NCBI RefSeq assembly: GCF_002903165.1
Contig: NZ_PPSK01000002.1
Location: forward strand, 248,001 to 312,000
From: Halopseudomonas oceani
Lineage (GTDB): Bacteria > Pseudomonadota > Gammaproteobacteria > Pseudomonadales > Pseudomonadaceae
Direction: 5' to 3'
DNA: 64,000 nt
The translations under genes were made by a program, and so were the position numbers. The notes under the pieces were generated by a model. That model was not told the DNA's origin. It did not search any database and saw only the letters and a list, made by a program, of their open reading frames with translations. Positions within the stretch are counted from its first letter, which is position 1. Each line of letters starts with the position of its first letter. This document shows, piece after piece, positions 43,318-63,454 of the stretch.

Positions 43318-43694
43318 GGCAGTTTTCCTGTTGATCGTTGGCATGTTCAGCGGAGGCTGATCCACGACTCATGGTGGGCGTGGTGCCAATAGACGGGATA
43401 CGGAAAACAGCCCGGATACGGCGGGAAAAATGCCCGTACCGGTGGCGCTTGGTACAGGGTGGAAGGGAGGAATACTTAGGGTGCAGATAACCTGATCCAA
43501 GGATCGGGCGGATTTCTCCGGGAAAGCAGAAAAGGCTCTGGAATAGGGGCACGGCCCGGCAGGGGAGGGTTTTCTACTACCAACGAACTAGCTCGCGGCC
43601 ACCAAAGCAGCATTGGGCCCGTTGTGGCGGCTTCCTACCATGGCCATCGACAGCAATGCACTTGCGTAATCGATTCGGCCACGAGGTGAGCAGT
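43318..43694. promoter_or_regulatory. Divergent promoter region pedE / cytochrome c with two operator candidates
   Basis: This 377-bp gap has no gene. It holds TACCAACGAACTA at 43578-43590 and CACCAAAGCAGCA at 43600-43612, the latter followed by TTGGGCC. Both resemble the 13-bp element seen in the other PQQ-cluster promoters (for example TACCAAGGTACTA at 63442). The sites are 105-117 and 83-95 nt from the cytochrome ATG and about 260-295 nt from the pedE ATG. No sigma-54 -24/-12 pattern was noticed. Confidence 0.45.
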
Positions 43695-44132
43695 ATGAAC
43701 CATTACAAGAACACACTGAAAATGACTGCACTTGGCCTGGCGCTGGTCGCCGGTCAGGCGCTGGCCCACGGCAACGTCACGCCCCAGGCAGTAGATACCA
43801 AGGGATTGGAAGAACTCGGTGAGGAATGGCGTGAAACCAACCCCTACCGTGAAGGGCATCCGCAGCACGAGCTGGCGATCAAGGTCGGTGCATCGGCCTA
43901 CAACCAGAACTGCGCCGCCTGTCACGGTCTGGAAGGCATCTCTGGCGGCATTACACCGGATCTGCGTTACCTGGAAGTCGGTGACTACGGCGATGAGTGG
44001 TTCAAGGAGCGGGTCATCAATGGCTCGGTCCGCGATGGTCGCGTCTATATGCCGAAGATGGCCGACTTCCTGAGTCAGGAAGCACTCTGGTCCATTCGTA
44101 CCTGGCTGGAAAGTGTGGCAGTGGAGCAATAA
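43695..44132 (+). CDS. pedF: Periplasmic cytochrome c (PedF/c550-like)
   Basis: 145 aa. Signal peptide MNHYKNTLKMTALGLALVAGQALA; heme motif CAACH (Cys73, Cys76, His77) and likely Met ligand in VYMPKMADFLSQEA. It is the expected electron acceptor for quinoprotein dehydrogenases, as cytochrome c550 is for ExaA. GAGGTGAG lies just upstream. It is followed after 4 nt by the PedG-like gene. Confidence 0.9.
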   Translation: MNHYKNTLKMTALGLALVAGQALAHGNVTPQAVDTKGLEELGEEWRETNPYREGHPQHELAIKVGASAYNQNCAACHGLEGISGGITPDLRYLEVGDYGDEWFKERVINGSVRDGRVYMPKMADFLSQEALWSIRTWLESVAVEQ

Positions 44133-44136
44133 CGTC

Positions 44137-45024
44137 ATGATCCGCGCCTGGCTGTTTTGTCTCTGCCTGCTGCTGGGACTGCCAGCGCAGGCCTACAACA
44201 TCACCCACATCCGTGATTATGACGAAATCGTCGCCTCCGGTGAGCTGCGGGTAGCCCTGTACCAGGACTTTCCGCCCTACAGCTTCATGCAGGGCGATGA
44301 GCCCGCGGGGGTTGATGTGGCGCTGGCCAAAGCGCTAGCTGAAGGACTCGGCGTGCGTCTCAGCATCCAGTGGATGCTGGCGGATGAAACCATTGACGGT
44401 GACCTGCGCAACCACCTTTGGAAAGGGCATTACCTGCGCCCGGGCGAAGTCGCCGACGTCATGTTGCGGGTGCCCTACGATCAGGACTTCAGCAACCGCC
44501 GCGATGAGCTGGGGCTGCCGAAGAACGAGCTGGTGCACATGTTCGGGCCCTACCAGCGCGAACGCTGGCAGGCGGCCTATGATCCGAACAAGATCGACGC
44601 CGTGCCCAGCATCGCGATCTTTCAGTACTACCCGGTCGGGGTAGAGGAAGACTCGGTGCCGTCGTTCTATCTGGGCTCGGTGCTGAATGGTCGGCTCGCT
44701 GGCATGACGCACCACTACCGCACACTCAGCGTAGCCTTCGACGCCTTGCTCAAGGGCGAGGTCAACGCGGTGATGGGCACCCAGGCGGAAATCGACTGGC
44801 TGCTGGCTCAACACCCGGCAGCGGGCATGCAACTGACCGAAAACGCCTACCCGAACATCGGCAAGCAGGTGTGGGAGTTGGGGATGGCGGTGCACGACTC
44901 CAACCGTCAGTTGGCCTATGCGCTGGGCGATGAAGTGGAAAGCATGATTCTCGATGGCCGGATGGCGGCTATCTATGCGGCGCAGGGGCTGCGGTATTTG
45001 CCGCCTGATCGCTACGCGCAGTAA
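44137..45024 (+). CDS. pedG: Periplasmic binding-fold protein (PedG/XoxJ-like)
   Basis: 295 aa with signal peptide (WLFCLCLLLGLPAQA). The fold is a bacterial extracellular solute-binding family 3 domain: GELRVALYQDFPPYSFMQGDEPAG. In methylotrophs and pseudomonads, MxaJ/XoxJ-type proteins next to the dehydrogenase and cytochrome take part in enzyme maturation or delivery of the metal, but the ligand is not settled. The gene begins 4 nt after pedF. Confidence 0.8.
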   Translation: MIRAWLFCLCLLLGLPAQAYNITHIRDYDEIVASGELRVALYQDFPPYSFMQGDEPAGVDVALAKALAEGLGVRLSIQWMLADETIDGDLRNHLWKGHYLRPGEVADVMLRVPYDQDFSNRRDELGLPKNELVHMFGPYQRERWQAAYDPNKIDAVPSIAIFQYYPVGVEEDSVPSFYLGSVLNGRLAGMTHHYRTLSVAFDALLKGEVNAVMGTQAEIDWLLAQHPAAGMQLTENAYPNIGKQVWELGMAVHDSNRQLAYALGDEVESMILDGRMAAIYAAQGLRYLPPDRYAQ

Positions 45025-45040
45025 TCGACTGATCTCCTTT

Positions 45041-45130: not shown

Positions 45131-45344
45131 CGCCTTCGTCGGCGAGCCAAGGGGGGCCGCTTGCCCGGCCCCCCTTGGCGATCCCCCTGGGCACCCGGCT
45201 ACGCGGCCCTTCGGGTTCGCTGCGTTGCTCGGGCTGACGGGGAGTCATAAAACTCGGCTCTTCGAGCCTCAAACATCCTATGACTCTTTTTCCCGTCAGC
45301 CCTGCGCTACTCGCCCGCGTAAACGGGGATTGGGGTCGTGCGCG
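45131..45344 (+). repeat. Long dispersed repeat, copy A
   Basis: Reads CGCCTTCGTCGGCGAGCCAA and onward, and matches, as an inverted copy, 58286-58512 over its whole length with scattered differences and about 20 nt of indel. Shared tracts include GGCGAGCCAAGGGGGG, ACGCGGCCCTTCGGGTTCGC and CCTGCGCTACTCGCCCGCGT. No coding signature. Confidence 0.75.
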
Positions 45345-45371
45345 CTTCACGTTTGGTTCCACTGTTTCGAT

Positions 45372-45455
45372 GGTTCCCACGCTCTGCGTGGGAACCGGAC
45401 TACTCGGACGCTCTGCGGCCGGCGGTTCTCTCTTTGCTGGACGCGGAGCGTCCGT
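45372..45455 (+). repeat. GC-rich inverted-repeat element
   Basis: Contains the palindrome GGTTCCCAC / GTGGGAACC (45372-45396) and GGACGCGGAGCGTCC (45439-45453). From memory, similar sequences are dispersed in pseudomonad intergenic DNA. Only this copy was noticed here. Confidence 0.5.
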
Positions 45456-45521
45456 CCCTGTCGCCCGCGCAAAGCACGCGGCCTCACCACGGACTTGCAA
45501 GCTGATAATGGTTTTTCACTT

Positions 45522-45544
45522 TAAATGTTACGTTATAACAATTA
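45522..45544 (+). promoter_or_regulatory. Zur-box-like operator upstream of the TonB receptor
   Basis: TAAATGTTACGTTATAACA at 45522-45540, then ATTA to 45544, matches the gammaproteobacterial Zur consensus (GAAATGTTATANTATAACATTTC) at AAATGTTA and TATAACA, in the same spacing. It lies 63 nt upstream of the receptor ATG. It predicts zinc-starvation induction by Zur derepression. Confidence 0.7.
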
Positions 45545-45606
45545 TAGTCTGCCCCCGCGGTGTGCCAGCCACGCCGTTGCCAATACCAAATCGAAAGGGA
45601 GCAGCC

Positions 45607-47625
45607 ATGTTTTCAAGCAAGACGCCATTGACTCTGGCGCTGGCGGCGGTGGCCGCTGGTGTCTCTTCCGTGCAGGCGGCGGATACGCCGCTGGAGTTGC
45701 CGACGCTGACGGTCAGCGCCAGTGCGTTGAACCAGACGCCGGAGCAGATGACTCAGCCGGCGGCGGTGCTGCAGGGCGAGGACTGGTTTGCATTGCGTGA
45801 AACCGGGTTGGCCGACAGCCTGGAGTCGTTGCCGGGTGTTCGCGCGGCCGGGTTTGGGCCGGGCAGCAGTCGCCCGGTCATTCGCGGTTTGGATGGGGCG
45901 CGGGTGCGGGTGCTGAGCGACGGTGCTGATGTGCTGGATGCTTCGACCATCAGCCCGGACCACGCGATCAGCGCTGATACTGCGCTGATTGAACGGGTGG
46001 AAGTGCTCAAAGGTCCGGCCACGCTGCTGTACGGTGGCGGGGCTATTGGCGGGGTGGTCAACCTGATTGATCGCCGGGTACCGACCTATGTGCCCGAAAG
46101 CGGTTATGAAGGCGAGATTGACCTGCGGGCTAACACGGTCGCCGATGAGCGCGCTGGCTCTGCCGGACTAACCCTCGGCACCGGTGCCTTTGCGATGCGT
46201 ATTGAAGGCGGCAAGAGTGAGGCTGATCCCTACCGCATCCCGGGCCATCCGTCCCGTCAGGAAGGCGCCTACAACGATACCGATACCGGCTCGCTGGGGC
46301 TGAGCTGGATTGGTGAGCAGGGCTATCTGGGGCTGGCCTACAGCCGCCAGGATCGCGAATACGGTCTGCTGGCACATGAGCACGCCGACTGCCACACCCA
46401 CGGCCCGGACTGGCATTGCGGTGGTCATGGGCATGGTCACGGCCACGACGACGATGAACACGCCGATGCCTGGATCGATATGGAGCAGCGCCGCTGGGAT
46501 CTGCGTGGCGAATATCAGAATCCGTTTGCGGGCGTAGAGCGTGTACGCCTGCGCGTTGCCGACACCGACTATCGCCACGTCGAGATGGAAGGTGACGAAG
46601 TCGGGACCCGCTTTACCAACCGCGGTACAGACGGGCGCCTTGAGGTTACCCACGCCCCGGTTGCTGGCTGGCGCGGAGTGATCGGCACCCAGCTGACCCG
46701 CCGCGACTTTGCTGCGGAAGGGGAGGAGGCGTATGTCCCGGCGACACTGACCCACAACCGCGCGCTGTTCCTGCTGGAAAGCTATGAGACCGGCGACTGG
46801 CTGTATGAAGTGGGCCTGCGTCAGGAATGGCAGTCGGTGGAGGTCAAGCAGGGTAGTGACGACGCCGACCATCGCGGCACCTCGGTTTCACTGGGTGCTA
46901 CCTGGCAGTTCCAGCCGGATCTGGCGTTGTACGGCTCACTGTCGCGTTCGCAGCGCCTGCCTGCCGCCGAAGAGCTGTACGCCAACGGCCCGCATGCGGC
47001 GACCCGTACGGTAGAACTGGGTGATCCGGATCTGGATCGGGAAACTGCGATCAACGCTGAACTCGGTCTGCGTCGCACCCGTGGTGCGGTGACCTTTGAT
47101 GTGAGTGTCTATCGCAACGAGGTGGATGACTTCATCTTCGCGGCTGATACCGGCGCGGATCCGGGAGCCGGTTACCGGGTGGTGGAGTACCGCCAGGCCG
47201 ATGCGGTGTTGCAGGGTGTTGAAGGCAGTGTCAGCTGGCAGGCGACTGCAGCGACCGGTCTTACCCTGTTTGGCGACAGCGTGCGTGGTCGCCTGAAGGA
47301 CGGTGGTGATCTGCCGCGCATCCCGGCTGATCGGGTGGGCGTGCGGCTGAATCAGCGCCTGACCGGTGCCCTGTCGGCGCAGCTGGAAGCGAGTCAGGTA
47401 ATGCGTCAGGACCATACCGCCGACTACGAGACCGAGACCGGCGATTACATCCTGCTGGGCGCTGGCGTGAACTGGCGTGGCGTGCTGGGCGAAAGCGACG
47501 TGTTGCTCTATCTGCGCGGCAACAATCTGCTTGATGAAAAGGCGCGTCAGCACAGCTCGTTCATCAAGGATGAGGTGCTGTTGCCTGGCCGCAACCTCAC
47601 GGTTGGCGCGCGGCTGGTGTTCTGA
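45607..47625 (+). CDS. ZnuD-like TonB-dependent receptor
   Basis: 672 aa. Signal peptide (LTLALAAVAAGVSSVQA), plug domain with RPVIRGLDGARVRVLSDGAD and RVEVLKGPATLLYGGGAIGGVVNLIDRR, and a beta-barrel ending ARLVF with a C-terminal Phe. A long loop at about 257-288 is extremely His/Asp-rich (HADCHTHGPDWHCGGHGHGH then DDDEHADAW), resembling the Zn-binding loop of Neisseria ZnuD and P. aeruginosa PA0781. With the Zur-like box it is most likely a zinc receptor. Its place between two quinoprotein genes leaves a lanthanide or metallophore role open but less likely. Confidence 0.85.
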   Translation: MFSSKTPLTLALAAVAAGVSSVQAADTPLELPTLTVSASALNQTPEQMTQPAAVLQGEDWFALRETGLADSLESLPGVRAAGFGPGSSRPVIRGLDGARVRVLSDGADVLDASTISPDHAISADTALIERVEVLKGPATLLYGGGAIGGVVNLIDRRVPTYVPESGYEGEIDLRANTVADERAGSAGLTLGTGAFAMRIEGGKSEADPYRIPGHPSRQEGAYNDTDTGSLGLSWIGEQGYLGLAYSRQDREYGLLAHEHADCHTHGPDWHCGGHGHGHGHDDDEHADAWIDMEQRRWDLRGEYQNPFAGVERVRLRVADTDYRHVEMEGDEVGTRFTNRGTDGRLEVTHAPVAGWRGVIGTQLTRRDFAAEGEEAYVPATLTHNRALFLLESYETGDWLYEVGLRQEWQSVEVKQGSDDADHRGTSVSLGATWQFQPDLALYGSLSRSQRLPAAEELYANGPHAATRTVELGDPDLDRETAINAELGLRRTRGAVTFDVSVYRNEVDDFIFAADTGADPGAGYRVVEYRQADAVLQGVEGSVSWQATAATGLTLFGDSVRGRLKDGGDLPRIPADRVGVRLNQRLTGALSAQLEASQVMRQDHTADYETETGDYILLGAGVNWRGVLGESDVLLYLRGNNLLDEKARQHSSFIKDEVLLPGRNLTVGARLVF

Positions 47626-47642
47626 GCAGGGCGGGTAGTGCT

Positions 47643-47655
47643 ACCAAGGGAGTAA
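47643..47655 (+). promoter_or_regulatory. PQQ-cluster operator candidate upstream of pedH
   Basis: TACCAAGGGAGTA, 11 of 13 matches to TACCAAAGTAGTA (complement of the pqqF site). It lies 169 nt upstream of the pedH ATG in the 198-bp gap after the TonB receptor. Confidence 0.45.
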
Positions 47656-47823
47656 GGAAATCACCCCTGTGAGCAATTGTTGGTATTGGGCTCTGAGCCA
47701 AGAATCGTGGCCAGAAGCAGGAAATTTTCCCGTTTCATCGTGTGGGACGTGCTGAGCGCTACCTGAGTGTCGTTCAGCGCAACCCGACTGCGCCAATACA
47801 ACAACATCTCAGAGGTAGCAGCA

Positions 47824-49602
47824 ATGACCAAACATGCCCGCTCTTCCTTTCTGTTGACCACGCTGGTTGCCGCCATGAGCGTCGCCGGCGTGGCAGCAGC
47901 CAATGTCACCAACGACGATATCCGTGCCGACGCCACCAACAACAGCCAGGTGGTCACCAACGGCATGGGTCTGCAGGGTCAGCGTTACAGCACCCTGGAC
48001 ATGCTCAATACCGACAACGTCAGCAGCCTGCAGCCGGTCTGGGCTTTCTCGCTGGGTGGCGAGAAGCAGCGCGGTCAGCAGTCCCAGCCGATGATCAAGG
48101 ACGGTGTGATGTATATCACCGGTTCCTACTCGCGCGTTTTTGCGGTGGACGCCCACACCGGCACCAAATTGTGGCAGTACGATGCCCGTCTGCCTGACGG
48201 CATCATGCCCTGCTGCGACGTGATCAACCGTGGCGTTGCGCTCTACGACAACCTGGTGATCTTTGGCACCCTGGACGCCAAGCTGGTCGCGCTGGACAAG
48301 GATACCGGCAAGGTCGTCTGGCGCAAGACCGTGGCCGACTACCGGGCCGGTTACTCGATCACCGCCGCGCCGCTGGTGGTGGACGGCAAGCTGATCACCG
48401 GCGTCTCCGGTGGTGAATTCGGTGTGGTCGGCAAGATCGAAGCCTACAACCCCACCAACGGCGAGTTGCTGTGGACTCGTCCGACCATTGAAGGTCACAT
48501 GGGTTACGTCTATGAAGACGGCCAGCCGGTGGAGGCCGGTATCTCCGGTGGCGAGGCTAACCAGAGCTGGCCGGGCGACCTGTGGAAGACCGGTGGCGGC
48601 GCGCCCTGGCTGGGTGGCTACTACGATCCGGAAACCAACCTGCTGTTCTTCGGCACCGGTAACCCGGCACCCTGGAATTCGCACCTGCGGCCTGGTGACA
48701 ACCTCTACTCCTCGTCGCGTCTGGCTCTGAACCCTGACAACGGTCAGATCGTCTGGCACTTCCAGACCACCCCGCATGACGGCTGGGACTTTGACGGCGT
48801 GAACGAGCTGATCTCCTTCAACTACGAAGAAGACGGCAAGGAAGTGAAAGCGGCCGGTACTGCCGACCGTAACGGCTTCTTCTATGTACTGGACCGCACC
48901 AACGGTGATTTCATCCGCGGCTTCCCATTTGTCGACAAGATCACCTGGGCCACCGGTCTGGATGAGAACGGTCGTCCGATTTACGCCGATGACTACCGTC
49001 CGGGTGCACCGACCGAATCCGGCGATGCGGGCCGTCAGGTCTTCACTGCCCCGGCCTTCCTCGGTGGCAAGAACTGGATGCCGATGTCCTACGGCCAGAA
49101 CACCGGCCTGTTCTACGTCCCGTCCAATGAGTGGGGTATGGACATCTGGAACGAAGCAACCACCTACAAAAAAGGCGCCGCCTATCTGGGGGCTGGCTTT
49201 ACCATCAAGCCGCTGAACGACGACTACATCGGCGTGTTGCGGGCGATGGACCCGAAAACTGGTGAGGAAATCTGGCGCTACCAGAACCCGGCCCCGCTGT
49301 GGGGTGGTGTGCTGAGCACCCAGGGTAATCTGGTATTCACCGGTAACCCCGAGGGTTATCTGATGGCGTTTGACTCCCGCAACGGTGAGAAGCTCTGGCA
49401 GTTCAACACCGGTTCCGGTGTGATCGGTTCGCCGATTACCTGGGAGATGGATGGTGAGCAGTACGTCTCCGTCATGTCCGGCTGGGGTGGCGCGGTGCCG
49501 CTGTGGGGTGGCCACGTTGCCGAGCGGGTGAAGAACTTCACCCAGGGCGGCACGCTGTGGACCTTCAAGCTGCCGAGCAGCGCGGCAGTCAGCCAGCGCT
49601 AA
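47824..49602 (+). CDS. pedH: PQQ-dependent alcohol dehydrogenase, lanthanide type (PedH-like)
   Basis: 592 aa, periplasmic. Signal peptide ends near GVAAA. The propeller has PQQ features and the vicinal disulfide [10 protein letters not shown]. The active site [11 protein letters not shown] has catalytic Asp322 and Asp324 at +2. This extra Asp is the hallmark of XoxF/PedH enzymes, whose cofactor is a light lanthanide. P. putida PedH oxidises various alcohols and aldehydes with La/Ce/Pr/Nd. ATG at 47824 has GAGG upstream. A terminator follows. Confidence 0.93.
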
Positions 49603-49698: not shown

Positions 49699-49717
49699 TA
49701 CTACTTTGGTACCGGTT
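49699..49717 (-). promoter_or_regulatory. PQQ-cluster operator candidate upstream of pqqF
   Basis: TACTACTTTGGTACCGGTT on the plus strand, 64-82 nt before the pqqF GTG. The complement of 59545-59563 upstream of agmR matches 18 of 19 bases, in the same orientation relative to each gene. The site is an imperfect palindrome with TAC/GTA ends. Confidence 0.6.
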
Positions 49718-49780: not shown

Positions 49781-52357
49781 GTGTACTCGATACCTCTTGC
49801 CTCCCTGCCTGCCGACCAGCGTGACTACCAACTGTACCGCGCTGCCAACGGTTTGCTCTGTTTACTGATTCACGACGCTCAAGCCAGCCAGGCCTGCGCT
49901 GTCCTGCAAGTATCCGCTGGCAGTCATGCCGAACCGGATGACCTGCCGGGGCTGGCGCATCTGCTGGAACACATGCTGTTTATGGGCTCGCAACGCTGGC
50001 CGGAGCCGGGCTCGTTTCCCGCCCGGGTGGCGGAGTGGGGCGGGCGCTTCAACGCCAGCACCGCTCCGCATTCGACCAGCTTTTTCTGCTCGGTGAGCCC
50101 GCAGGGGCTGCAGCCCTGTCTGGCGCAGCTGACCGACATGCTGGCGGCTCCGCTGTTTGCGCCCGACCAGGTTGAGCAGGAGCGGCGGGTAATCGACGCC
50201 GAATTTCATACCCGGCTGGCCGACGACGCTATTCATGCCCAGGCGGTCCTGGCCGAAGTGGTGCACCCGGACCATCCGCTCAGTCGCTTCAGCGCTGGCA
50301 ATGCCGTCAGCCTTGCCGGTGACCCGGGCTGGCTGGCTGAACGCCTGCGTCAGTGGCACGGCATTCATTATCGCGCTGGCAGCATGGCATTGGTGCTGTA
50401 TGGGCCGCAGCGGCCTGAGCAACTGCTGGCGCTGGCACAGGATAGCGCAGAGCAACTACTGGCGGGCCGCGCGCCGGAACCCTTCGCCCAGCCGCTGTTT
50501 GCCAGCGGACAGCTGCCGCTGCAGCTGGATTGGCAGGGTCGCAGCGGTCAGCCGCAATCCGTCCTGCTGTATCCACTGATGGGCTGTGATGTGCATGGTG
50601 CGGCGGCTAAATGGCTGTGTGACTGGCTGAACAGCCCGGCACCGGGCGGTGCGCTGGGGTATCTGCGAGACCGAGGGCTGCTCGATGAACTGCACGCCTC
50701 GCTGGACGCGGATGTCGGTGGTCAGGCTCTGCTGCGTATTGAGCTGCAGAGCGCTGACGCTGAGCCCGAGCAGGTGCTGGCCGGGCTGGATGGCTGGCTG
50801 CAGGCTATGCGCAGCAAGGACCCAGCCGAATGGCCGCAGGCGGCGCGTCGGGCACTGGCGCAGACTGCCTTTGACCTTGGGCCGCAGGGCGACCTGCTCG
50901 ACAGCTGTCGTCGCTATGCCTTGAGGCTGCTGGAATTGCCCGCCGAACAGGTGCTGGACGTGGCTGGCGTTGCGCTGGATACCGTCAGTATGTCTGACTG
51001 GCAAGCGCTGCTTGATCAACTCCTGCCAGCCAGGCGTTTGCTGCTACAGCGTCAGCCCCGCTTGCATGGAGGTGAACGATGTGCTCACACCGGCACCCCT
51101 TGGCAGGCGCGACCGCTGCAGCTACCCCCGGCGCCCTCGGCCGATCTGGCAGGGCGTCTTGGCCCCTGCCTCGGGCCGCTGGCCGAGGCCCCGAAAGGGC
51201 TACGCTGGTCCACGGTACTGCCCGGTTTGCGGCTGCTCCGCTATGCAGGTCGTCCGGGCGCGCTACGCACTCGGCTCGCTTGGTGCTGGGCCGATACCGC
51301 AGCGAGTATCGCCGAGCGCCGCTGGCTGCAGGCTTGCTGGACATTGCAGAGTGAGGCGCTGCAGCAATGGGGAGCCCGTGTTGGCATTAGCCTGCAATGG
51401 TCATTGGCAGCGGGGCAACTGGTGCTGGATGTTGCTGGCCCGCCGACCCTGCTGCCGGGGTTCATGCGCGAGCTGCTGAGCCAGTTGCATACCCCACCAG
51501 CCACAAGCCAGCTGGGGCTTATCGAGCGGCGCAGCCGACGCTGGGCGCAGGAGGAGGCTGACGCGCTGCCAGCCTGGCGGTTGTTACAAGCGCTGGAGCG
51601 CGAGCGCTCAACCCGGGCCATGCGGTTGCGCGACCCCCTCGCACTCTGGCAGTGGTTGTGCTCCGAGGCACAGATCATCTGGCTCAAACCTGACGGCTGC
51701 CCAGAGGCCGAGTCTGCGCAAATGGCCAAGTTGCTGCTCAACCTCTGTCCGCGCTTGATGCAACCCTTTGACTGGTGCTGCCCGTTACCGCAGCTGCAGA
51801 CGGGGCAGCTGCAGGTCAGCGAGGTCAGCAGCAAACATACCGATCGCGCGCAGCTACTGTACCTGCCAGCCGAAGACGACAGCGTACTTGAAGCGGCTTG
51901 CTGGCGGTTACTGCATCACCGGCTGGCTGATCCGTTTTTTGCCGAACTGCGCACCCGCCAGCAGCTTGGATACTGGGTGGTGGCGCGCCTGCACCAGCGT
52001 GCCGGTCGGCCCGGCCTGTTGTTGCTGGTGCAGTCACCTGAGCGTTCGCACCGTTGCATCGAATCGGCGGTCGACGGATTTCTCGAGCAGAGTATGCCGG
52101 CGTTGGTCGCGCTGTCTGCCGAGCAGTTGCAGGCACAGGCTGCCCATCTGTCGCGGTTGCTGGAGCAGCAGCGGCAGCATCCGCAGCAGGGCTTCGAGGC
52201 GCACTGGGATGATTGCCTTTGGCAGCGTGAAGATCAGTTGGCGGCAGAGCAGCAGGCGTTGTTGGCCTTGACCGGTGCGCATTGGAGCGCCTTTGTCAGT
52301 CGCCTGCCGCACAGTGCGCGCTGGCGCCTGGTGAGCCGACAGGCGGGGGCCGATTGA
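49781..52357 (+). CDS. pqqF: PqqF-like M16 metallopeptidase
   Basis: 858 aa from a GTG at 49781. Inverzincin motif GLAHLLEHMLFMGS (HxxEH) with downstream Glu in RRVIDAEFHTRLADDAIHAQ. The remaining ~600 residues are the inactive M16 halves, more divergent. PqqF with PqqG processes the modified PqqA peptide in PQQ synthesis. Other pqq genes are absent from the window, so they must be elsewhere. Placement directly after pedH, with a cluster-type operator, suggests co-regulation with alcohol oxidation. Confidence 0.85.
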   Translation: MYSIPLASLPADQRDYQLYRAANGLLCLLIHDAQASQACAVLQVSAGSHAEPDDLPGLAHLLEHMLFMGSQRWPEPGSFPARVAEWGGRFNASTAPHSTSFFCSVSPQGLQPCLAQLTDMLAAPLFAPDQVEQERRVIDAEFHTRLADDAIHAQAVLAEVVHPDHPLSRFSAGNAVSLAGDPGWLAERLRQWHGIHYRAGSMALVLYGPQRPEQLLALAQDSAEQLLAGRAPEPFAQPLFASGQLPLQLDWQGRSGQPQSVLLYPLMGCDVHGAAAKWLCDWLNSPAPGGALGYLRDRGLLDELHASLDADVGGQALLRIELQSADAEPEQVLAGLDGWLQAMRSKDPAEWPQAARRALAQTAFDLGPQGDLLDSCRRYALRLLELPAEQVLDVAGVALDTVSMSDWQALLDQLLPARRLLLQRQPRLHGGERCAHTGTPWQARPLQLPPAPSADLAGRLGPCLGPLAEAPKGLRWSTVLPGLRLLRYAGRPGALRTRLAWCWADTAASIAERRWLQACWTLQSEALQQWGARVGISLQWSLAAGQLVLDVAGPPTLLPGFMRELLSQLHTPPATSQLGLIERRSRRWAQEEADALPAWRLLQALERERSTRAMRLRDPLALWQWLCSEAQIIWLKPDGCPEAESAQMAKLLLNLCPRLMQPFDWCCPLPQLQTGQLQVSEVSSKHTDRAQLLYLPAEDDSVLEAACWRLLHHRLADPFFAELRTRQQLGYWVVARLHQRAGRPGLLLLVQSPERSHRCIESAVDGFLEQSMPALVALSAEQLQAQAAHLSRLLEQQRQHPQQGFEAHWDDCLWQREDQLAAEQQALLALTGAHWSAFVSRLPHSARWRLVSRQAGAD

Positions 52358-52372: not shown

Positions 52373-52402
52373 TACTACCTAGGTAGGTTGTAAATACAAC
52401 CT
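52373..52402 (+). promoter_or_regulatory. Operator candidate and adjacent palindrome upstream of the porin
   Basis: TACTACCTAGGTA (52373-52385) matches the pqqF site at 11 of 13. Directly adjoining is an 8-bp-arm palindrome AGGTTGTAAATACAACCT (52385-52402). Both are about 140-170 nt before the porin ATG. The palindrome could be a second regulator's site. Confidence 0.45.
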
Positions 52403-53757: not shown

Positions 53758-53814
53758 GCATTTTGTTGCACCGGACCCGTGGTGTGTCGTGCTAACCCAC
53801 CATTTCAATTGCAC

Positions 53815-53887
53815 GTCATCCCCACGAAGGCGGGGATCCATCGTGGGGCCTGAGTGGCCACTGGATTCCCGCCTTCGCGGGAATGAC
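53815..53887 (+). repeat. Short inverted-repeat element 1
   Basis: Starts GTCATCCCCACGAAGGCGGGG and ends CTTCGCGGGAATGAC. Each half is itself a small hairpin. Terminal 6 bp GTCATC and ATGAC are inverted. See three other copies. Confidence 0.85.
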
Positions 53888-54003
53888 GGTGTGTATTGGA
53901 GCACTGGCGCATGCGAAGGGACCCTAGGGATGGAGCTGCGGCCTTCGGCTTGTCACGATCAGGCGATACCCGAGCCCAAATCTGGCACGTCGTGTCCTTC
54001 CAC

Positions 54004-54077
54004 GTCATCCCCGCGCAGGCGGGGATCCACTTCGGTGCTTGAGCGACCCACTGGATTCCCGCCTGCGCGGGAATGAC
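54004..54077 (+). repeat. Short inverted-repeat element 2
   Basis: Starts GTCATCCCCGCGCAGGCGGGG and ends GCCTGCGCGGGAATGAC. Same orientation as element 1. Confidence 0.85.
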
Positions 54078-54169
54078 GGTGTAGTGAGGGGAATGACGGT
54101 GTGCAGTGGGGTGATGGCGAGTCCGGGTTACGCCAGCTCTGGCGTCGTTCCCAAGACCTACCAATTCAG

Positions 54170-54182
54170 TACTGAAGTAGCA
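54170..54182 (+). promoter_or_regulatory. Operator candidate upstream of nosP
   Basis: TACTGAAGTAGCA followed by TAGGGCC, 38-50 nt before the nosP ATG. It matches the agmR element TACTAAAGTAGTA at 11 of 13, and the nearby GGGCC occurs at a similar spacing in the pedE/pedF element CACCAAAGCAGCA-TTGGGCC. Confidence 0.5.
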
Positions 54183-54219
54183 TAGGGCCGGGGCTTGCCT
54201 GCTCTCTAGAATCGTTGGC

Positions 54220-55398
54220 ATGAACCCGATTTCCGGTATGCCCGACTTCAGCACCCAGCCGCTCGACGACTGCTTTCGCACCGCCATGACCGAGGCCACC
54301 GACCCGGACGCCGCGGCGCAGGATCTGGCGCGCCAGTTATTGCACCCGCATCTGGGCTGCGTATTGTTCTTCTGTTCGGCCGAATACCCCCTCGACAAAC
54401 TGGCGACCGCGCTGGATCAGCACTTTGGCGGCGTCATGCTGCTGGGCTGTACTACCGCCGGAGAAATCAGCGCAGCAGGCTATGGCCGCGGCTGCATCAG
54501 CGCGGTCGGGCTCGACCTGCGCACCTTCGCGGTCGACTGCACGCTGATCCGTGCGCTCGACAGCTTCAGCCTGGTTGAGGCACAGCAGGCGGTAGAGCGC
54601 ATGCTTGGTCACTGCCGGCAGGTCAATCTGGCGCCGGTCAAGGATCACACCTTCGCGCTGACCATGCTTGATGGCCTGTCCAGCCGCGAAGAACTGGTGC
54701 TCAACACCCTGAGCGCCGCGCTCGGCAGCATTCCCCATTTCGGCGGTTCAGCCGGCGACGACAACCACCTGAGCCATACCCACGTCTACTATCAGGGCCG
54801 CTTCCTTACCGGCGCGGCAGTGGTGGTGATGGTCAACACCTGGCTGGACTTTGAGGTGTTCACCACCCATCACCTCAAACCCACCGAGAGCAAACTGGTG
54901 GTGACCGATGCCGACAGCAGCACCCGCACCGTGCTGGAACTGAACGCCGAACCCGCCGCCGAGGAATACGCCCGGCTAGTCGGCGTGCCGGTGGATGAGC
55001 TTAGCGGCAAACACTTCGCCCTCGACGCGCTGGCCGTGCGCATTCGCGACCAGTTCTACGTGCGTTCGATTCAGCGGGTCAATCCGGACCGCAGCCTGAC
55101 CTTCTACTGCGCGGTGGATACCGGCATCGTGCTTACGGCGATGACACCCGGCGAGCTGCTGCCGAATCTGCGGCTGCGCTTTGAGCAGCTGCGTCAGCGT
55201 CTCGGTGAACCGGTGCTGATCCTCGGCTGCGACTGCTTCTTGCGCCGCATGGAGTCCGAGCTGCGCGGTGAAGACCAGCGCATGTCGGAGTTTCTCGCCG
55301 CCAACCGGGTGATCGGTTTCAACACCTACGGCGAGCAGTTCAACGGCATGCACATCAACCAGACCTTCACCGGGGTGGCCTTTGCATTCCCGCGTTGA
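54220..55398 (+). CDS. nosP: FIST-domain protein NosP-like
   Basis: 392 aa. FIST N (about 20-220) and FIST C (about 235-380) domains are visible: LMLLGCTTAGEISAAGYGRG, GGSAGDDNHLSHTHVYYQG and VIGFNTYGEQFNGMHINQTFTG. NosP (PA1975) in P. aeruginosa is a heme-bound NO sensor that regulates the kinase NahK, encoded next to it. The order FIST-kinase is conserved here. Operonic, as the stop overlaps nahK's start region. Confidence 0.85.
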   Translation: MNPISGMPDFSTQPLDDCFRTAMTEATDPDAAAQDLARQLLHPHLGCVLFFCSAEYPLDKLATALDQHFGGVMLLGCTTAGEISAAGYGRGCISAVGLDLRTFAVDCTLIRALDSFSLVEAQQAVERMLGHCRQVNLAPVKDHTFALTMLDGLSSREELVLNTLSAALGSIPHFGGSAGDDNHLSHTHVYYQGRFLTGAAVVVMVNTWLDFEVFTTHHLKPTESKLVVTDADSSTRTVLELNAEPAAEEYARLVGVPVDELSGKHFALDALAVRIRDQFYVRSIQRVNPDRSLTFYCAVDTGIVLTAMTPGELLPNLRLRFEQLRQRLGEPVLILGCDCFLRRMESELRGEDQRMSEFLAANRVIGFNTYGEQFNGMHINQTFTGVAFAFPR

Positions 55399-57982
55399 GT
55401 TGCCGCTGCATGACCCGGAGCTGCTGGCCGAGCTGGAAGCCCTGCGGGCGGAAAACCGCAAACTCAAACGCATCAACGCCGCGCTGATCGAGCGGGTCGA
55501 ATCCAGCTCCAGTCAGCGCACCGAAAGCTACGCAGCGTTTCAGCACTCGGTGGAATTGGCCGAACAGGTGCGTGAACGCACCCAGGCACTGAACGACACC
55601 ATGGCCGAGCTGCAGGCCAGCAACCGCCTGCTGAGCGATGCCCGCGCCCGCGCCGAGAAAGCCCACCACTACCTGATCGACGCCATCGAAAGCGTGCCCG
55701 ATGCCTTCGTGCTGTTCGACGAGAACAAGCGCATCGTGCTCTACAACCGCCGCTTTGCCGCGTTCTGGCAGGGCACCGGCGTGCGCATCACCGAAGGCAC
55801 CTCGCTGGGTGAGGTCAAGCGCATGGCGTTGAGCGCCGGGCTGATCGTCGATACCGACGCCGCTGCCGACGGCCATCTGCTGCACCAACTGCGTGACCAG
55901 CGCTGGATGCAGGTCAGCGAACGGCCGACCCGCGAAGGCGGGCTGGTGATCATGTACACCGATATCACCGACCTCAAGCAGTCCGAGAAGGCGCGGCGCG
56001 AGAAGGCGCTGGAGCAGAAGACCCGGCTGCTGCAGCGTACTGTCGACAGCCTGTCCCAGGGCGTCGCCGTGGTGAATGACGAAGGTGCGTTGGAAGTCTG
56101 GAACGGCCGCTTCCTGGAATTGGCAGGGCTGGCACCGATTGAGGCCCACCGCCCGTTCGACGAGGTGATGGAAGACAGCGAACTGGAGCTGTTCACGCCC
56201 TACAGCCGCACGGCGCAGGGCGCGCCGGTGCTGACCTGCGAGCAGCATCTGGGCAATGGCCGGGTGCTGGAGGTGCGCACGCACCCCATGCCCACCGGTG
56301 GCTTCGTCAACACCTTTACCGACATCACCGAGCGCGACCTCTACGCCCGCGCGCTGGAGGACAGCGAGCGCTGGGTCAGGCTGATTACCGACCACGTGCC
56401 CGCGCTGATCGCCTACGTCGGTGCCGACTTGACCTACCAGTTCACCAACAAGGTGTATGAAGACTGGTACGGCTGGGCCCGTGGCGAGATTCTCGGTCAC
56501 AGCCTGCACCGGGTCCACAGCGCCGAGCAGTACGCTCGCCTGGAGCCTTACATCGCTCGGGCCTTCAACGGCGAAAGCGTCAGCTTTGAGTTTGCCGAAC
56601 CCAATCTGGACGGTCACCAGCGCTACCTGCTGCGCTCATACGTGCCAAATCGCGACAGCGAGGGCGAGGTGGTCGGTATCTTCGTGATGATCCGCGACAT
56701 CACCGAGCGGCGGCGCACCTCCGAGGCGTTGCATCAGGCCTATCAGCATCTGGAGCAGCGCGTGCGCGAGCGCACTCAGGAGCTGACCGAAGTAAACAGT
56801 CAGATGCGTCAGGAGATCCGCGAGCGCGCCGAGGCCGAAGCGCGCCTGCGCGAAGCCAAGCGCGAAGCCGAGCAGGCCAACCTGTCGAAAACCAAGTTTC
56901 TCGCCGCGGTCAGCCACGACCTGCTGCAGCCACTCAACGCCGCGCGGCTGTTCACCGGCGCGCTGCTGGAGCAGCAGGTGCCGGAGGGCAGTGCATCGCT
57001 GGTGCGGCAGGTCAGCCACTCGCTGGAGGATGTCGAAAACCTGCTCGGCACGCTGGTCGACATTTCCAAGCTGGACGCCGGGGTCATCAAGCCGGATATC
57101 AACGCCTTCTGCTTCGACAGCTTGCTCGACAACCTCGCCAACGAATATCGCCAGCTCGCCGCCAGCGAAGGTCTGCAGCTGAGCTTTGTGCCGTGTGGTG
57201 CGGTGGTGCGCAGCGACGCCCAACTACTGCTGCGCATCCTGCGCAACTTCCTCACCAACGCCATCCGCTACACGCCGTCCGGGCGCATCCTGCTCGGCTG
57301 TCGTCGCCACGCCCACGGCCTGCGCATCGAGGTCTGGGATACCGGCATGGGCATCCCGGAAGACAAGCTGCAGGAAATCTTTCAGGAGTTCAAACGGGTC
57401 AACCCCAGCGCCAATACCCGCGACCGTGGGCTGGGGCTTGGCCTTGCCATCGTCGACAAGATCGCCCGCATGCTCGGCCACCGCATCCGCGTGCGCTCGG
57501 TCGAAGGCCGCGGCTCGGTGTTCAGCGTGGATGTGCCGTTTGGCCGCCTGCAACCGACCGTGGTGCAGGAAGAACCGGTCACCGCCCGCATCGGCGAACG
57601 CCTGCCGGGCTCCACCATCTGGGTGCTGGATAACGACGCCGCCATCTGCGCCGGCATGCGTACACTGCTGGAAGGCTGGGGCTGCACCGTCATCACCGCG
57701 CTGTCCGAAGACGATCTCGCCGCCCAGGTCGACAACTTCCACGCCCAGGCCGACCTGCTGATCGCCGACTACCACCTCGACAACGACGTCAACGGCGTCG
57801 ACGTCGTTCAATGCATCAACGCCCGCCGCAGCTCACCGCTGCCGGTACTGCTGATTACCGCCAACTACAGCAACGCGCTGAAACTGCAGGTGCGGGAGTT
57901 GGGGCATGTGATTCTGCATAAGCCGGTGAGACCGATGAAGTTGAAGACGGCGATGAGTCATTTGTTGGCGGTGAGTGGGTGA
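55382..57982 (+). CDS. nahK: Hybrid sensor histidine kinase NahK/ErcS'-like
   Basis: 866 aa from a TTG at 55382 overlapping nosP by 17 nt (an alternative TTG at 55400 is possible). An N-terminal coiled coil, PAS regions (about 100-200, 230-340, 350-465), HisKA with FLAAVSHDLLQPLNAARLF (His512), HATPase_c (NAIRYTPSG, DTGMGIPEDKLQEIF, GLGLGLAIV) and a receiver (LLIADYHLDNDVNG, Asp796). In P. aeruginosa the homologue feeds HptB and affects biofilm. Here it precedes an AgmR-type regulator, which suggests it could also phosphorylate that protein. Confidence 0.88.
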   Translation: MHSRVELPLHDPELLAELEALRAENRKLKRINAALIERVESSSSQRTESYAAFQHSVELAEQVRERTQALNDTMAELQASNRLLSDARARAEKAHHYLIDAIESVPDAFVLFDENKRIVLYNRRFAAFWQGTGVRITEGTSLGEVKRMALSAGLIVDTDAAADGHLLHQLRDQRWMQVSERPTREGGLVIMYTDITDLKQSEKARREKALEQKTRLLQRTVDSLSQGVAVVNDEGALEVWNGRFLELAGLAPIEAHRPFDEVMEDSELELFTPYSRTAQGAPVLTCEQHLGNGRVLEVRTHPMPTGGFVNTFTDITERDLYARALEDSERWVRLITDHVPALIAYVGADLTYQFTNKVYEDWYGWARGEILGHSLHRVHSAEQYARLEPYIARAFNGESVSFEFAEPNLDGHQRYLLRSYVPNRDSEGEVVGIFVMIRDITERRRTSEALHQAYQHLEQRVRERTQELTEVNSQMRQEIRERAEAEARLREAKREAEQANLSKTKFLAAVSHDLLQPLNAARLFTGALLEQQVPEGSASLVRQVSHSLEDVENLLGTLVDISKLDAGVIKPDINAFCFDSLLDNLANEYRQLAASEGLQLSFVPCGAVVRSDAQLLLRILRNFLTNAIRYTPSGRILLGCRRHAHGLRIEVWDTGMGIPEDKLQEIFQEFKRVNPSANTRDRGLGLGLAIVDKIARMLGHRIRVRSVEGRGSVFSVDVPFGRLQPTVVQEEPVTARIGERLPGSTIWVLDNDAAICAGMRTLLEGWGCTVITALSEDDLAAQVDNFHAQADLLIADYHLDNDVNGVDVVQCINARRSSPLPVLLITANYSNALKLQVRELGHVILHKPVRPMKLKTAMSHLLAVSG

Positions 57983-58765: not shown

Positions 58766-59428
58766 TCAGCGCCGCAAATACGCACTGAAATCCACATCAC
58801 TCGCCGACAAAATAGCCTGCACCCGGTTATGCACATTCAACTTGCGCAGAATTGCTGACACGTGGGCTTTCACCGTGGTTTCGGCGATGTCGAGGTGGTA
58901 GGCGATCTGTTTGTTGGATTCGCCCTTGGCCATGCGCTCGAGCACCAGCAACTGCTTGCGGGTGAGGGCGTAGAGCAGTTCCGGGGAGATGGGGTATTCC
59001 TCGGGGTTGCGGCGGGTGATGGTGTGGTTGGCGCGGATGATGTCGGAGGGCAGGTAGACGTTGCCGTCGAGGATTTGCTCAATTGCTTCGGTCATCTGCG
59101 CGCGCGGCGAGGATTTGGTGATAAAGCCGACGGCGCCGTAGGTGATGGCCTGCAGCACTACCTGCTTGTCTTCCTCGGCCGAGACAATCACCACCGGAAT
59201 CGACGGCGACTCGTTGCGCAGCGTGATCAGGCCGTTGAGGCCGTGCATGCCGGGCATGTTGAGGTCCAGCAGAATCAGATCCAGGTCGTCCTGTTCCCGG
59301 GCTATGGCCAGAGCACTATCCAGGTCGCAGGTTTCCAGCAACTCGCTGCCGGGAAATCCGCTACTGATGACATTGCAGATGGCCTCGCGAAACAACGGAT
59401 GATCATCAGCTATCAGTATCTTGTACAT
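58766..59428 (-). CDS. agmR: LuxR-family response regulator AgmR/ErbR/PedR1-type
   Basis: 220 aa. Receiver domain with [17 protein letters not shown] and phospho-acceptor Asp55 in LLDLNMPG, then LuxR HTH ([35 protein letters not shown], quoted here only in parts: [18 protein letters not shown]). It reads as a near match, from memory, to AgmR/ErbR, an activator of PQQ alcohol dehydrogenase genes. It likely binds the 13-bp element in this region. The heptamer array lies 153 nt upstream. Confidence 0.92.
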
Positions 59429-59544
59429 GGCTTGGGCAACCTGTTTTTGTTGTATTTGGTCATGCCGGGCAACGCTGGCCCGGTGGTATCAGTTGGTATT
59501 ACACCCCCGGTGGGGCGTCTTGCAAATGATACATTCGCACAACG

Positions 59545-59563
59545 AACCGGTACTAAAGTAGTA
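59545..59563 (+). promoter_or_regulatory. Operator candidate upstream of agmR
   Basis: AACCGGTACTAAAGTAGTA, complement of the pqqF site at 18 of 19 bases. It is 117-135 nt upstream of the agmR ATG, consistent with autoregulation or control by another regulator. Confidence 0.55.
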
Positions 59564-59580
59564 ATCCCGGCCCGGAGGGT

Positions 59581-62152: not shown

Positions 62153-62163
62153 GGGCAGCTCCA

Positions 62164-63360
62164 TCAGCTCTTGTTCAGGTGTTCGGCGATGCGGCACTGG
62201 CTCTCGGGCTCGTCGTAGCCGAGGGTGTCCAGGTCGGTGCCGGGGTGCAGGAAGCCGTCCTGCGGTGACGTGGTAACCAGTGCGCGCGGCTGCACCAGCG
62301 CAATCGGCTGGCGTAGCTGACCGCTCCAGGTGCGGTAGCTCAGTTTGCGGCCCTTGAAGCCGTCCATCGGCAGGCGGTCACTGACGCTGAGTGCGGCAAT
62401 GGCCTCGGCGTCGGTGCTGTTGAGGGTGGTGACCGCCGCGCCAATCGAGCGCACGGCCAGCCAGGAAGCGAAGTCCAGACTGTTCATCCAGCGCCCGGCG
62501 TGTTCCTCAAAGCGCTTCTGCAACTGCGCCGCGCCGTAGGTTTCGATGGTCTTGTGCCAGCCGACCGGAGTCAGGCCCTGGGTACCGGCCACCGGACGCG
62601 GATACCAGGTGTTGTAGGGGATGTATTCGCCAAAGTCGCCGCGCTCGTCGGCCACCAGCACCACGTCGTACTCATCGGTTTGGGTGAACAACGGCACCTC
62701 GGCCTGGGCGGCGCGGCGCAGGTCGGTATCAAAGCTCCACTCTTTTTCCGCGACGATGCGCATGCCGTAGCGCTGGGCGGCACGCTTGAGGGCATTGGCG
62801 TAGGCCTGATCCGCTTCGGTTGGGCCGCTGATCAGCAGCCAGCGCTTGAGTTTGCGGCTGAGCAGAAACTGGCCCAGCGCATCGGCCAGCATGGCGCGGC
62901 TGGGCAAGGTGTGCAGCACGTTGGGCAGGCACTGGGTGGTGCGCAGGACGTCGTCGTAACTGCCGGCGTTGAATAGCAGGCTGTCGCCAAACTCGGCAGA
63001 CAGGGCGCTCAGCGCGCTGGCCGGCAGGTTGCTGATGAACAGTCGCACGCCGTCGGCATGCAGGGCGCGGGCGGCGTCGAGGGTGGCGTCCAGCTCGGGC
63101 TCGCTGGCGGTAACCAGTTGATAGTCGTGCTTGAGAAAGCGGCCGGTGGTGTTGTTGTCGACGATGGCGAGTTCCGCGCCGCGCAGCCCGGCATCGGTTG
63201 GCTCGGGGATCACGTTCGACAGCACCGGGCCGGGGTCGGGTGTCCAGGCTACGTAGCCGATGCGCACGTCCAGCGGCTCGGCGTATGCTTGTTCGGCCAC
63301 CAGCGTGGCCACGCACAGGGCGAGCATGAAGAATGCAGTTTGGGTGAGCAGCGGGCGCAT
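62164..63360 (-). CDS. pedA1: Periplasmic substrate-binding protein (PedA1-like)
   Basis: 398 aa with signal peptide (FFMLALCVATLVAEQAYA). LDVRIGYVAWTPDPGPVLSNV and two alpha/beta lobes resemble the periplasmic-binding fold type I (branched-chain amino acid binding-like). It is likely to bind the substrate of the PedABC-like system, possibly lanthanide complexes. GGAGG lies 6 nt before ATG at 63360. TGATG overlap with pedA2's alternate start. Confidence 0.78.
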   Translation of the reverse strand: MRPLLTQTAFFMLALCVATLVAEQAYAEPLDVRIGYVAWTPDPGPVLSNVIPEPTDAGLRGAELAIVDNNTTGRFLKHDYQLVTASEPELDATLDAARALHADGVRLFISNLPASALSALSAEFGDSLLFNAGSYDDVLRTTQCLPNVLHTLPSRAMLADALGQFLLSRKLKRWLLISGPTEADQAYANALKRAAQRYGMRIVAEKEWSFDTDLRRAAQAEVPLFTQTDEYDVVLVADERGDFGEYIPYNTWYPRPVAGTQGLTPVGWHKTIETYGAAQLQKRFEEHAGRWMNSLDFASWLAVRSIGAAVTTLNSTDAEAIAALSVSDRLPMDGFKGRKLSYRTWSGQLRQPIALVQPRALVTTSPQDGFLHPGTDLDTLGYDEPESQCRIAEHLNKS

Positions 63361-63441
63361 CGGGGCCTCCTTTTTGTTGTGGCCCCAGCATAGGAACCGC
63401 CCGCCGGCGGGGAAATATGAAGAAAGTACCAATCGCCCGGT

Positions 63442-63454
63442 ACCAAGGTACTAT
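63442..63454 (+). promoter_or_regulatory. Operator candidate between pedA1 and the cupredoxin-like gene
   Basis: TACCAAGGTACTA, followed by TTTCGGCC; it lies 82-94 nt upstream of the pedA1 ATG and 60-72 nt before the plus-strand gene at 63514. An additional AGTACCAAT at 63426-63434 could be a half site. Confidence 0.5.

Follow-up and report, generated by a model that had tools for sequence, protein, structure and literature searches.

In pseudomonads, AgmR (PedR1/ErbR) has been known since 1991 to regulate metabolism of the alcohol type, and it is debated whether its action on pedE, pedF and the pyrroloquinoline quinone (PQQ) genes is direct or runs solely via PedS2/PedR2. A 64,000-nucleotide stretch of Halopseudomonas oceani DNA (the window; G000:C2:248001-312000, within a genome of 4.16 Mb) carries a cluster for PQQ-dependent alcohol oxidation. 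A preliminary description of this stretch had reported a shared 13-bp element before nearly every promoter of the cluster and attributed it to a dimeric LuxR-type regulator. We find that this element, referred to here as the box, is real and widespread, and that it is a predicted operator; most probably it is the operator of AgmR, a response regulator of NarL/LuxR type that is encoded in the same cluster.

All eight sites named in the preliminary description were present, with coordinates right to within 1 nucleotide. More specifically, TACTACTTTGGTACCGGTT was found before pqqF at 49699-49717 on the + strand, and a copy agreeing at 18 of 19 bases was found before agmR at 59545-59563 on the - strand, where shuffled sequences lead one to expect 0.01 such matches. 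The proposed consensus TACYAARGTAGTA gave 19 window matches at up to 3 mismatches, compared with a mean of 8.4 and a maximum of 17 in shuffles. This enrichment is circular because the consensus was drawn from those very sites, which differ from it by 0 (49699, 59551), 1 (47642, 52373, 63441), 2 (54170) or 3 mismatches (43578, 43600). A non-circular matrix took its counts solely from loci outside Halopseudomonas, at their pedF, nosP and cupredoxin-gap sites; its anchors came from a de novo run without the window and its three closest kin (L031-L033), yet with seven Halopseudomonas-like loci (L034-L040). Over both strands of the window (about 128,000 positions), eight of its top 10 matches were the sites already named: 49699 (p 2e-9), 63441, 59551, 43600, 47642 and 54170 at ranks 1-6, 52373 at rank 8 and 43578 at rank 10. 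The two intruders were 36419 in 7th place, within an open reading frame (ORF) of 253 aa, and 16617 in 9th, within ORFs of up to 214 aa. Four of the ranked promoters (pqqF, agmR, pedH and the porin gene) are absent from the training set. In a 19-kb flank that had not previously been looked at, the top match (p 7e-7) fell 94 nucleotides before pqqA. The boxes of the window are as follows.

43578-43590, + strand: box 1 of the pedE/pedF gap, TACCAACGAACTA, degenerate (TACCAAGGGAGTA in most relatives); rank 10, 13.1 bits
43600-43612, + strand: box 2 of the pedE/pedF gap, CACCAAAGCAGCA, facing pedF; rank 4, p 4.5e-8
47642-47654, + strand: box before pedH, TACCAAGGGAGTA; rank 5, p 1.1e-7, matrix untrained on pedH
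49699-49711, - strand: box before pqqF, TACCAAAGTAGTA, reversed relative to pqqF; rank 1, p 2.2e-9, matrix untrained on pqqF
52373-52385, - strand: box before the porin gene, TACCTAGGTAGTA, reversed relative to the gene; rank 8, p 3.5e-6
54170-54182, + strand: box before nosP-nahK, TACTGAAGTAGCA, facing nosP; rank 6, p 3.6e-7
59551-59563, + strand: box before agmR, TACTAAAGTAGTA, reversed relative to agmR; rank 3, p 2.9e-8, matrix untrained on agmR
63441-63453, + strand: box of the pedA1/cupredoxin gap, TACCAAGGTACTA, facing the cupredoxin-pedS2-pedR2 genes; rank 2, p 1.9e-8

The box can be written as TACYNNRGTAGYA(T), a 10-bp inverted core TACY-NN-RGTA with a one-sided 3' GYA that gives it a direction. 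The GGGCC or CGGCC that had been noted 2-5 nucleotides further on does follow five of the eight window boxes. As a part of the box it was rejected, since [GC]GGCC lies at most 12 nucleotides after the box in only 42 of 232 boxes from seven gene sets, a total in which some boxes are counted twice (one gap serves both the pedA1 and the cupredoxin set, and 7 sites appear as agmR and as pedR2 boxes); in six of the seven sets it never occurs within 12 nucleotides before the box.

Conservation was assessed in the best 80 of 548 AgmR loci, taken with up to 10 kb on either side and with their cluster genes mapped. A home-made expectation-maximisation search (zero or one occurrence per sequence) was run de novo on dereplicated upstream stretches, without the window and L031-L033, and it rediscovered the box. 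Both pedF boxes were recovered in 29/29 pedF upstreams each and the same two in 17/17 pedE upstreams, while a box was found in 39/40 nosP upstreams (>8 bits) and, for the pedA1/cupredoxin gap, in 34/35 pedA1 and 16/17 cupredoxin upstreams. The de novo porin motifs showed no clear match to the box, and dereplicated orthologues of pedH and pqqF (7 and 5) were too few for this approach. The motif obtained for agmR, TACTGGTACCGtGACGG (31/56), was rejected because its 70-nucleotide flanks are conserved with a codon-like rhythm in the Pseudomonas loci; it is taken as probable coding sequence of the gene upstream of agmR, the box of agmR being TACTAAAGTAGTA and its variants.

A leave-family-out test, in which the tested family was excluded from matrix training (threshold 14 bits unless stated), placed the box upstream of pedE in 24/27, pedF in 38/42, pedA1 in 45/54 and the cupredoxin gene in 17/23 cases. 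The corresponding counts were 11/26 for pqqF, 34/80 for agmR, 17/51 for the PedR2-like gene, 8/50 for the porin gene, 4/13 for pedH and 1/6 for the kinase gene. Upstream of nosP the box was found in 16/52 cases at 14 bits and 37/52 at 12 bits (0/11 and 8/11, respectively, among Halopseudomonas-like loci). The agmR boxes include those of Halopseudomonas, Stutzerimonas, Marinobacter and a few Pseudomonas, with 10/10 Halopseudomonas-like loci positive, and overall the box was seen across Pseudomonas, Stutzerimonas and Marinobacter. Operon-internal controls gave 0/208 at 14 bits (nahK 0/44, pedC 0/55, pedB 0/55, pedA2 0/54) and 1/208 at 12 bits (pedB), and dinucleotide shuffles of the upstream sets gave 0-1.3% (all-locus rows). 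No box was found at 14 bits before the TonB receptor gene (0/1, window only) or at 12 bits before the aldehyde dehydrogenase gene to the right of the window (0/8), where there is a weak look-alike at L120:2147-2160. The statement that nearly every promoter carries the element is therefore borne out for eight gaps and does not extend to the TonB receptor, nahK, pedC, pedB and pedA2 genes.

The GYA end of the box faces the gene in 42/42 pedF, 50/50 nosP, 23/23 cupredoxin and 17/17 PedR2-like upstreams. A hexamer TAnnnT starts 30-32 nucleotides from the core centre in 39/41, 40/50, 22/23 and 17/18 of these, respectively, which amounts to 118/132 boxes when pooled, compared with 6/660 at control spacings. 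We infer that this hexamer is the -10 element; if it is, its fixed distance would centre the core near -43. At these four promoters the fixed direction and the fixed distance to the predicted -10 fit the site of a class-II sigma70 activator, which is expected near -41 to -44. The two pedF boxes lie 22 bp apart in 38/42 loci, that is two helical turns, on the same face of the DNA. Direction is not uniform elsewhere: among pqqF boxes 7 are reversed (window, L031, L032, L034, L035, L037 and L042) and 6 forward, and porin boxes are of mixed orientation. The -10-like hexamers of the window are listed below.

43636-43641, + strand: TACCAT, pedF; 31 nucleotides from the core centre of box 2
54207-54212, + strand: TAGAAT, nosP; 32 nucleotides from the core centre
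63476-63481, + strand: TAGCAT, cupredoxin gene; 30 nucleotides from the core centre
59526-59531, - strand: TATCAT, agmR; 24 nucleotides from the core centre

The specificity of the box was examined on a genomic scale. At up to 1 mismatch, TACYAARGTAGTA has 12 matches in the window's own genome, of which 5 fall in the 20-kb cluster interval (binomial P 2e-9, again circular); of the other seven, six are within ORFs, and the last (L009) coincides with the beginning of a gene that, by eye, is sigX-like. Exact TACYNNRGTAGYA has 11 matches in this genome, compared with 26 for the reversed control. Four are in the cluster, and only that of nosP has TAnnnT at 28-37 nucleotides; the seven outside have none at that distance, six being covered by long ORFs and one (L186) by nothing but short ones. 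The exact 14-mer GTACYAARGTAGYA gave 28 matches in 58 whole genomes, and 25 of them adjoin ped genes: 15 in the gap upstream of agmR (pedC-agmR 9, agmR-pedR2 6), 7 between pedA1 and either the cupredoxin or the kinase gene, and 3 at pqqF, with three (L152, L153, L178) away from ped genes. The form TACYAARGGAGYA had 10 matches in 38 genomes against 38 for its control, its own-genome match being that of pedH. The own-genome scans revealed no convincing member outside the cluster and pqqA, and the regulon looks local plus pqqA because the good matches outside fall in ORFs without a correctly spaced -10.

AgmR emerges as the likeliest user of the box from its conservation, its fixed promoter geometry, its co-occurrence with AgmR, the ErdR-like recognition helix of AgmR and the published dependence of P. 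putida promoters on PedR1, and the attribution to a dimeric LuxR/NarL-type regulator is thus well supported, though indirectly. AgmR and ErdR are paralogues (92/208 residues identical), and their recognition helices differ by S/T and L/F (TVKAHVTAIFRKLN in ErdR), whereas that of the PedR2-like regulator is TVSNNLTVLKQKLN. ErdR is encoded in 37/37 same-genus genomes and AgmR in 17; the 14-mer occurs in 15/17 genomes with AgmR and in 1/20 without it (G042, 75% complete; Fisher P 2e-7). According to mutants and reporters of P. putida, PpedS2R2 depends solely on PedR1, whereas pedE needs PedR1, partly directly, to a greater extent than PedR2, and PedR1 with PpedS2R2 responds in E. coli (PMC13390443). 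Targets assigned to AgmR/PedR1/ErbR from mutant expression data are pedE, pedF, pedI, pedS2R2 and the PQQ operon (PMC12997753, PMC13390443); the regulator and the target operons are the same as those proposed here. The box is present at the counterparts of such PedR1-dependent promoters, namely the pedE/pedF gap, the cupredoxin-pedS2R2 gap and pqqA/pqqF. For PpedS2R2, its dependence on PedR1 is what a PedR1 box in the cupredoxin-pedS2R2 gap would predict, the cloned fragment being unstated in the source passages. One difference lies in the arrangement: here pqqF is within the ped cluster and pqqA about 22 kb away, while KT2440 has a single distant pqqFABCDE locus.

Several observations weigh against this assignment. 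Genome-wide, TACYAARGTAGTA at up to 2 mismatches is not enriched (84 matches, compared with 225 for the reversed-pattern control), and only good matches are therefore meaningful. Because the rows of the conservation counts are related genomes, these counts overstate independence, and 46/80 agmR upstreams score below 14 bits. The co-occurrence of AgmR and the 14-mer is confounded, since genomes without AgmR mostly lack the cluster; pqqA, which some of them keep, was therefore used as a test. A pqqA box (at least 15 bits) was found in 14/18 genomes with AgmR and 1/7 without (P 0.007; G004 was set aside, its upstream DNA being wanting), and within the genus in 13/17 and 1/4, with a P of only 0.09. 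G035 (91% complete), in which AgmR was not found, has a strong pqqA box of 18.8 bits at L208, which could reflect recent loss of AgmR, a gap in the assembly or use of the box by something else. Conversely, G003, G007, G036 and G046 have AgmR and a different pqqA promoter without the box. One geometry does not cover all targets, as the box is reversed at agmR and, among Halopseudomonas, at pqqF, the porin boxes are mixed, pedH has no TAnnnT at the usual spacing, and at pqqA TAnnnT is found at 31 nucleotides in G055 only and is absent at 30-32 nucleotides elsewhere. Lastly, PedS1 is reported to be dispensable in P. putida (PMC13390443), so that it need not be the kinase that activates AgmR.

The closest published match to the box is the ACTU motif of CrbR/ErdR, known from acs, actP, PFLU0110 and PFLU5625 (Sepulveda and Lupas 2017, PMC5715377); the preliminary description had known of none, and this motif is related but distinguishable. 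An AgmR motif was not found in the open-licence literature covered (PMC12997753, PMC13390443, PMC5715377, PMC8402216, PMC9927353, PMC9927547, PMC9765439, PMC8041468, PMC9603970 and PMC6115532), although other AgmR papers may hold one, and the passages covered contain no AgmR binding tests. ACTU is the natural relative of the box because AgmR and ErdR are paralogues with nearly identical recognition helices. It is likewise an imperfect inverted repeat, TACY...GT...A(T), and it is the operator of a close AgmR paralogue. The ACTU box of P. fluorescens acs lies at -52 to -36 from the mapped start (PMC5715377); aligned on TACY, its core would be centred near -44 in the same direction, compared with about -43 for the ped box. 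It is conceivable that the boxes belong to ErdR/CrbR, the acetate-utilisation regulator, which would couple ethanol to acetate oxidation directly: ACTU sites such as TACTACCATCGTCGAAT share TACY...GT with the box (PMC5715377), the two helices are nearly the same, and ErdR is said to control ercS and agmR (PMC9927353, citing earlier work). We regard this as unlikely. In the four verified sites of ACTU, the window's GTA, GCA, GGA or GAA is replaced throughout by GTC, in most cases with GAAT after it (C at position 10 in 4/4 and A at position 12 in 3/4); the ped matrix mostly has GTA and then GYA, with A carrying 0.79 of the weight at position 10 and C/T 0.86 at position 12, unlike ACTU. Cross-scores are low both ways. 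On the ped matrix the range is -5.2 to 9.5 for the verified ACTU sites and 14.8-22.5, over the same 16 columns, for the window boxes and pqqA, and these boxes score 2.0-11.9 on a crude ACTU matrix made of the four verified published sites, which reach 18.4-22.8 when scored on themselves. A home-grown matrix from acs promoters was dropped for want of clear sites; 6/30 acs upstreams, with rough start calls, match a loose pattern that admits both box types. ErdR is also encoded in all 37 same-genus genomes, among which the 14-mer is nearly confined to those with AgmR, and the 15 promoters found for ErdR by AIDmut-seq in P. aeruginosa do not include ercS or agmR. The best reading is that the box is a sister of ACTU that differs mainly at positions 10 and 12; ACTU serves acetate genes and the ped box adjoins alcohol and PQQ genes.

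That PedR2 (ExaE/EraR), the lanthanide-switch regulator, binds the boxes appears highly improbable. This LuxR-type regulator belongs to the cluster too, being encoded just right of the window (L120:1434-2075), and pedE requires it in P. putida (PMC13390443). Its helix TVSNNLTVLKQKLN, however, is unlike those of AgmR and ErdR and, by an argument from similarity, not compatible with TACY half-sites of NarL/ErdR type; its best family model is GacA/UvrY. PpedS2R2, which is expected to carry the cupredoxin-gap box, follows PedR1 alone, with the reservation on the cloned fragment made above, and the pedE side of its gap holds a different conserved element. Barely credible is a neutral or structural origin, in which promoter-proximal DNA is shared by descent without a common regulator. 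Orthologous gaps are indeed related by descent, and phylogenetic footprints alone name no function, but the box recurs with one direction and one -10 spacing in four promoters, a matrix from some promoters recovers others, including the unseen pqqA, and hardly any exact match to the 14-mer lies outside the cluster. A further proposal is compatible with AgmR as the user, namely that forward boxes activate and reversed ones act differently, for example by autorepression of agmR with a core centre near -36; we consider it possible, if doubtful. Of the 34 agmR boxes, 7 coincide with boxes that face pedR2; each of the remaining 27 is reversed, with TAnnnT 24 nucleotides from the core centre in 11/27 and a different, similarly placed hexamer, judged by eye, in the rest; a box in this position would cover the -35 region. 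A different reading of the -10 would shift its position, and in P. putida 1,3-butanediol raises the activity of PpedR1 about 5-fold (PMC13390443). The latter objection is weakened by four agmR upstreams of P. putida, chlororaphis and related Pseudomonas (L068, L069, L075, L082), which have no box at 11 bits.

Two other known systems were compared with the box. The best solved relative of AgmR by sequence is NarL (1a04/1rnl), which recognises TACYYMT heptamers in a 7-2-7 spacing. The box has such TACY half-sites but, unlike the 7-2-7 arrangement, they overlap into a single 10-bp core to which GYA is added. EmaR of Acinetobacter baumannii is an ethanol-linked response regulator that has been likened to pedS1R1 (PMC13390443); its motif, xCTTATxxxxATxAT (PMC9603970), bears no resemblance to the ped box.

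The cluster begins with a PAS-GGDEF-EAL protein gene, pedD (pentapeptide protein), pedE (PQQ alcohol dehydrogenase) and pedF (cytochrome c), followed by genes for a solute-binding protein and a ZnuD-like TonB receptor, then pedH (second PQQ dehydrogenase), pqqF, the porin gene, nosP, nahK, agmR, pedC, pedB, pedA2, pedA1 and a cupredoxin-like gene, with which the window stops. The first 10 kb to its right (L120) encode a PedS2/PedR2-like pair made up of a HisKA_3 kinase and a response regulator with a GerE domain, aldehyde dehydrogenase, pqqA (identified from its peptide) and pqqC, and neighbouring genes are assigned to pqqB and pqqE from where they lie. For pedE, pedH, the porin and the cupredoxin, the names come from the preliminary description and the gene order; the porin and cupredoxin genes had no family match in model searches of the window proteins. 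AgmR of the window is 100% identical to its orthologues in Halopseudomonas aestusnigri and H. pachastrellae (L031, L032), and it scores 185.7 bits against the ErdR model, under the cut-off of 390. The genes most closely concerned are the following.

58766-59428, - strand: agmR (PedR1/ErbR) response regulator, proposed binder; Response_reg and GerE domains
43656-44132, + strand: pedF cytochrome c, putative target; Cytochrome_CBB3 / Cytochrom_C, alternative later start at 43695
47767-49602, + strand: pedH-type PQQ alcohol dehydrogenase, putative target; TIGR03075 787.4 bits, the lanthanide assignment being a naming of the preliminary description
49781-52357, + strand: pqqF, putative target; TIGR02110 290.9 bits, under the cut-off of 320
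54220-55398, + strand: nosP, putative target; NCBIfam NosP 584.6 bits, above the cut-off of 450
55382-57982, + strand: nahK/pedS1 (ErcS'-type hybrid kinase), directly after nosP; NahK/ErcS' model 1489.1 bits, slightly under the cut-off of 1500
63514-63951, + strand: cupredoxin-like gene (label of the preliminary description), first gene towards pedS2/pedR2; followed in L120 by the HisKA_3 kinase and GerE response regulator genes

Some features near the boxes were recorded in passing. A second conserved element, ATACGGAAAAACTCCCG, lies between the pedF boxes and pedE at 43398-43414 (+ strand, 3 mismatches here); it stands about 38 nucleotides before pedE in 17/17 dereplicated orthologues, a like motif occurs in 21/29 pedF upstreams, and it is a candidate PedR2 site or pedE promoter core. 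Before pedH and downstream of its box, GCAATTGTTG (47673-47682) is kept in distant relatives, and the usual -10 spacing does not explain it. An inverted repeat AGGTTGTA-AA-TACAACCT at 52385-52402, also present in L031 and L032, shares one base with the end of the porin box; a different regulator may bind there. Two similar palindromes with 27-nucleotide arms (CGTCATCCCC...), at 53814-53888 and 54003-54078, separate the porin ORF from nosP and look like a dispersed repeat of repetitive extragenic palindrome (REP) or miniature inverted-repeat transposable element (MITE) type. The ZnuD-like TonB receptor gene (45280-47625, between pedF and pedH), whose family match begins only at residue 114, encodes a candidate receptor for the metal needed by the dehydrogenase. 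Genes for cyclic di-GMP bracket the alcohol block, since a protoglobin-GGDEF (DosC-like) gas-sensor cyclase is encoded at L120:15720-17102, a few kb past the pqq genes, and the PAS-GGDEF-EAL protein at 38317-40650 flanks the opposite end.

The preliminary description had joined both dehydrogenases, PQQ processing, NO sensing and metal uptake in one regulon. Such a regulon holds for pedF, cupredoxin-pedS2R2, nosP-nahK, pqqF, pqqA and agmR, and for pedH with fewer orthologues. Its links to pedE, to metal uptake through pedA1, to the porin and to the TonB receptor are weaker: both boxes of the pedE/pedF gap face pedF, the box of the pedA1 gap faces the cupredoxin side, the TonB receptor gene has none, and porin boxes are infrequent. 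Binding of AgmR, activation through the box and the signal are inferred. We propose that alcohols would be sensed and lead to phosphorylated AgmR, which, centred near -43, would contact sigma70 RNA polymerase as a class-II activator and so turn on the alcohol oxidation genes. At pedF, both boxes would be AgmR sites on one face of the DNA. Through the box of the cupredoxin-pedS2R2 gap, AgmR would be physically connected to PedS2/PedR2, the lanthanide switch, and cofactor supply would be joined to the dehydrogenases, because pqqA and pqqF also carry boxes.

A box with direction and fixed spacing makes direct action of AgmR on pedE, pedF and the PQQ genes testable. It lets the regulon be predicted from sequence, it ties PQQ supply and the NosP-NahK operon to one switch, and it may find use in alcohol biosensors in P. 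putida. It also offers a case in which two paralogous response regulators possibly keep their targets apart. We tentatively entertain, as an idea rather less likely to be right than wrong, that AgmR and ErdR are a duplicated pair which, with nearly the same helix, split the alcohol and acetate regulons by two positions (GTAGYA and GTCGAA), the reversed agmR box serving as a brake. If this is true, a single operator would exist in two dialects, insulated from each other, one wiring the oxidation of ethanol and the other that of acetate.

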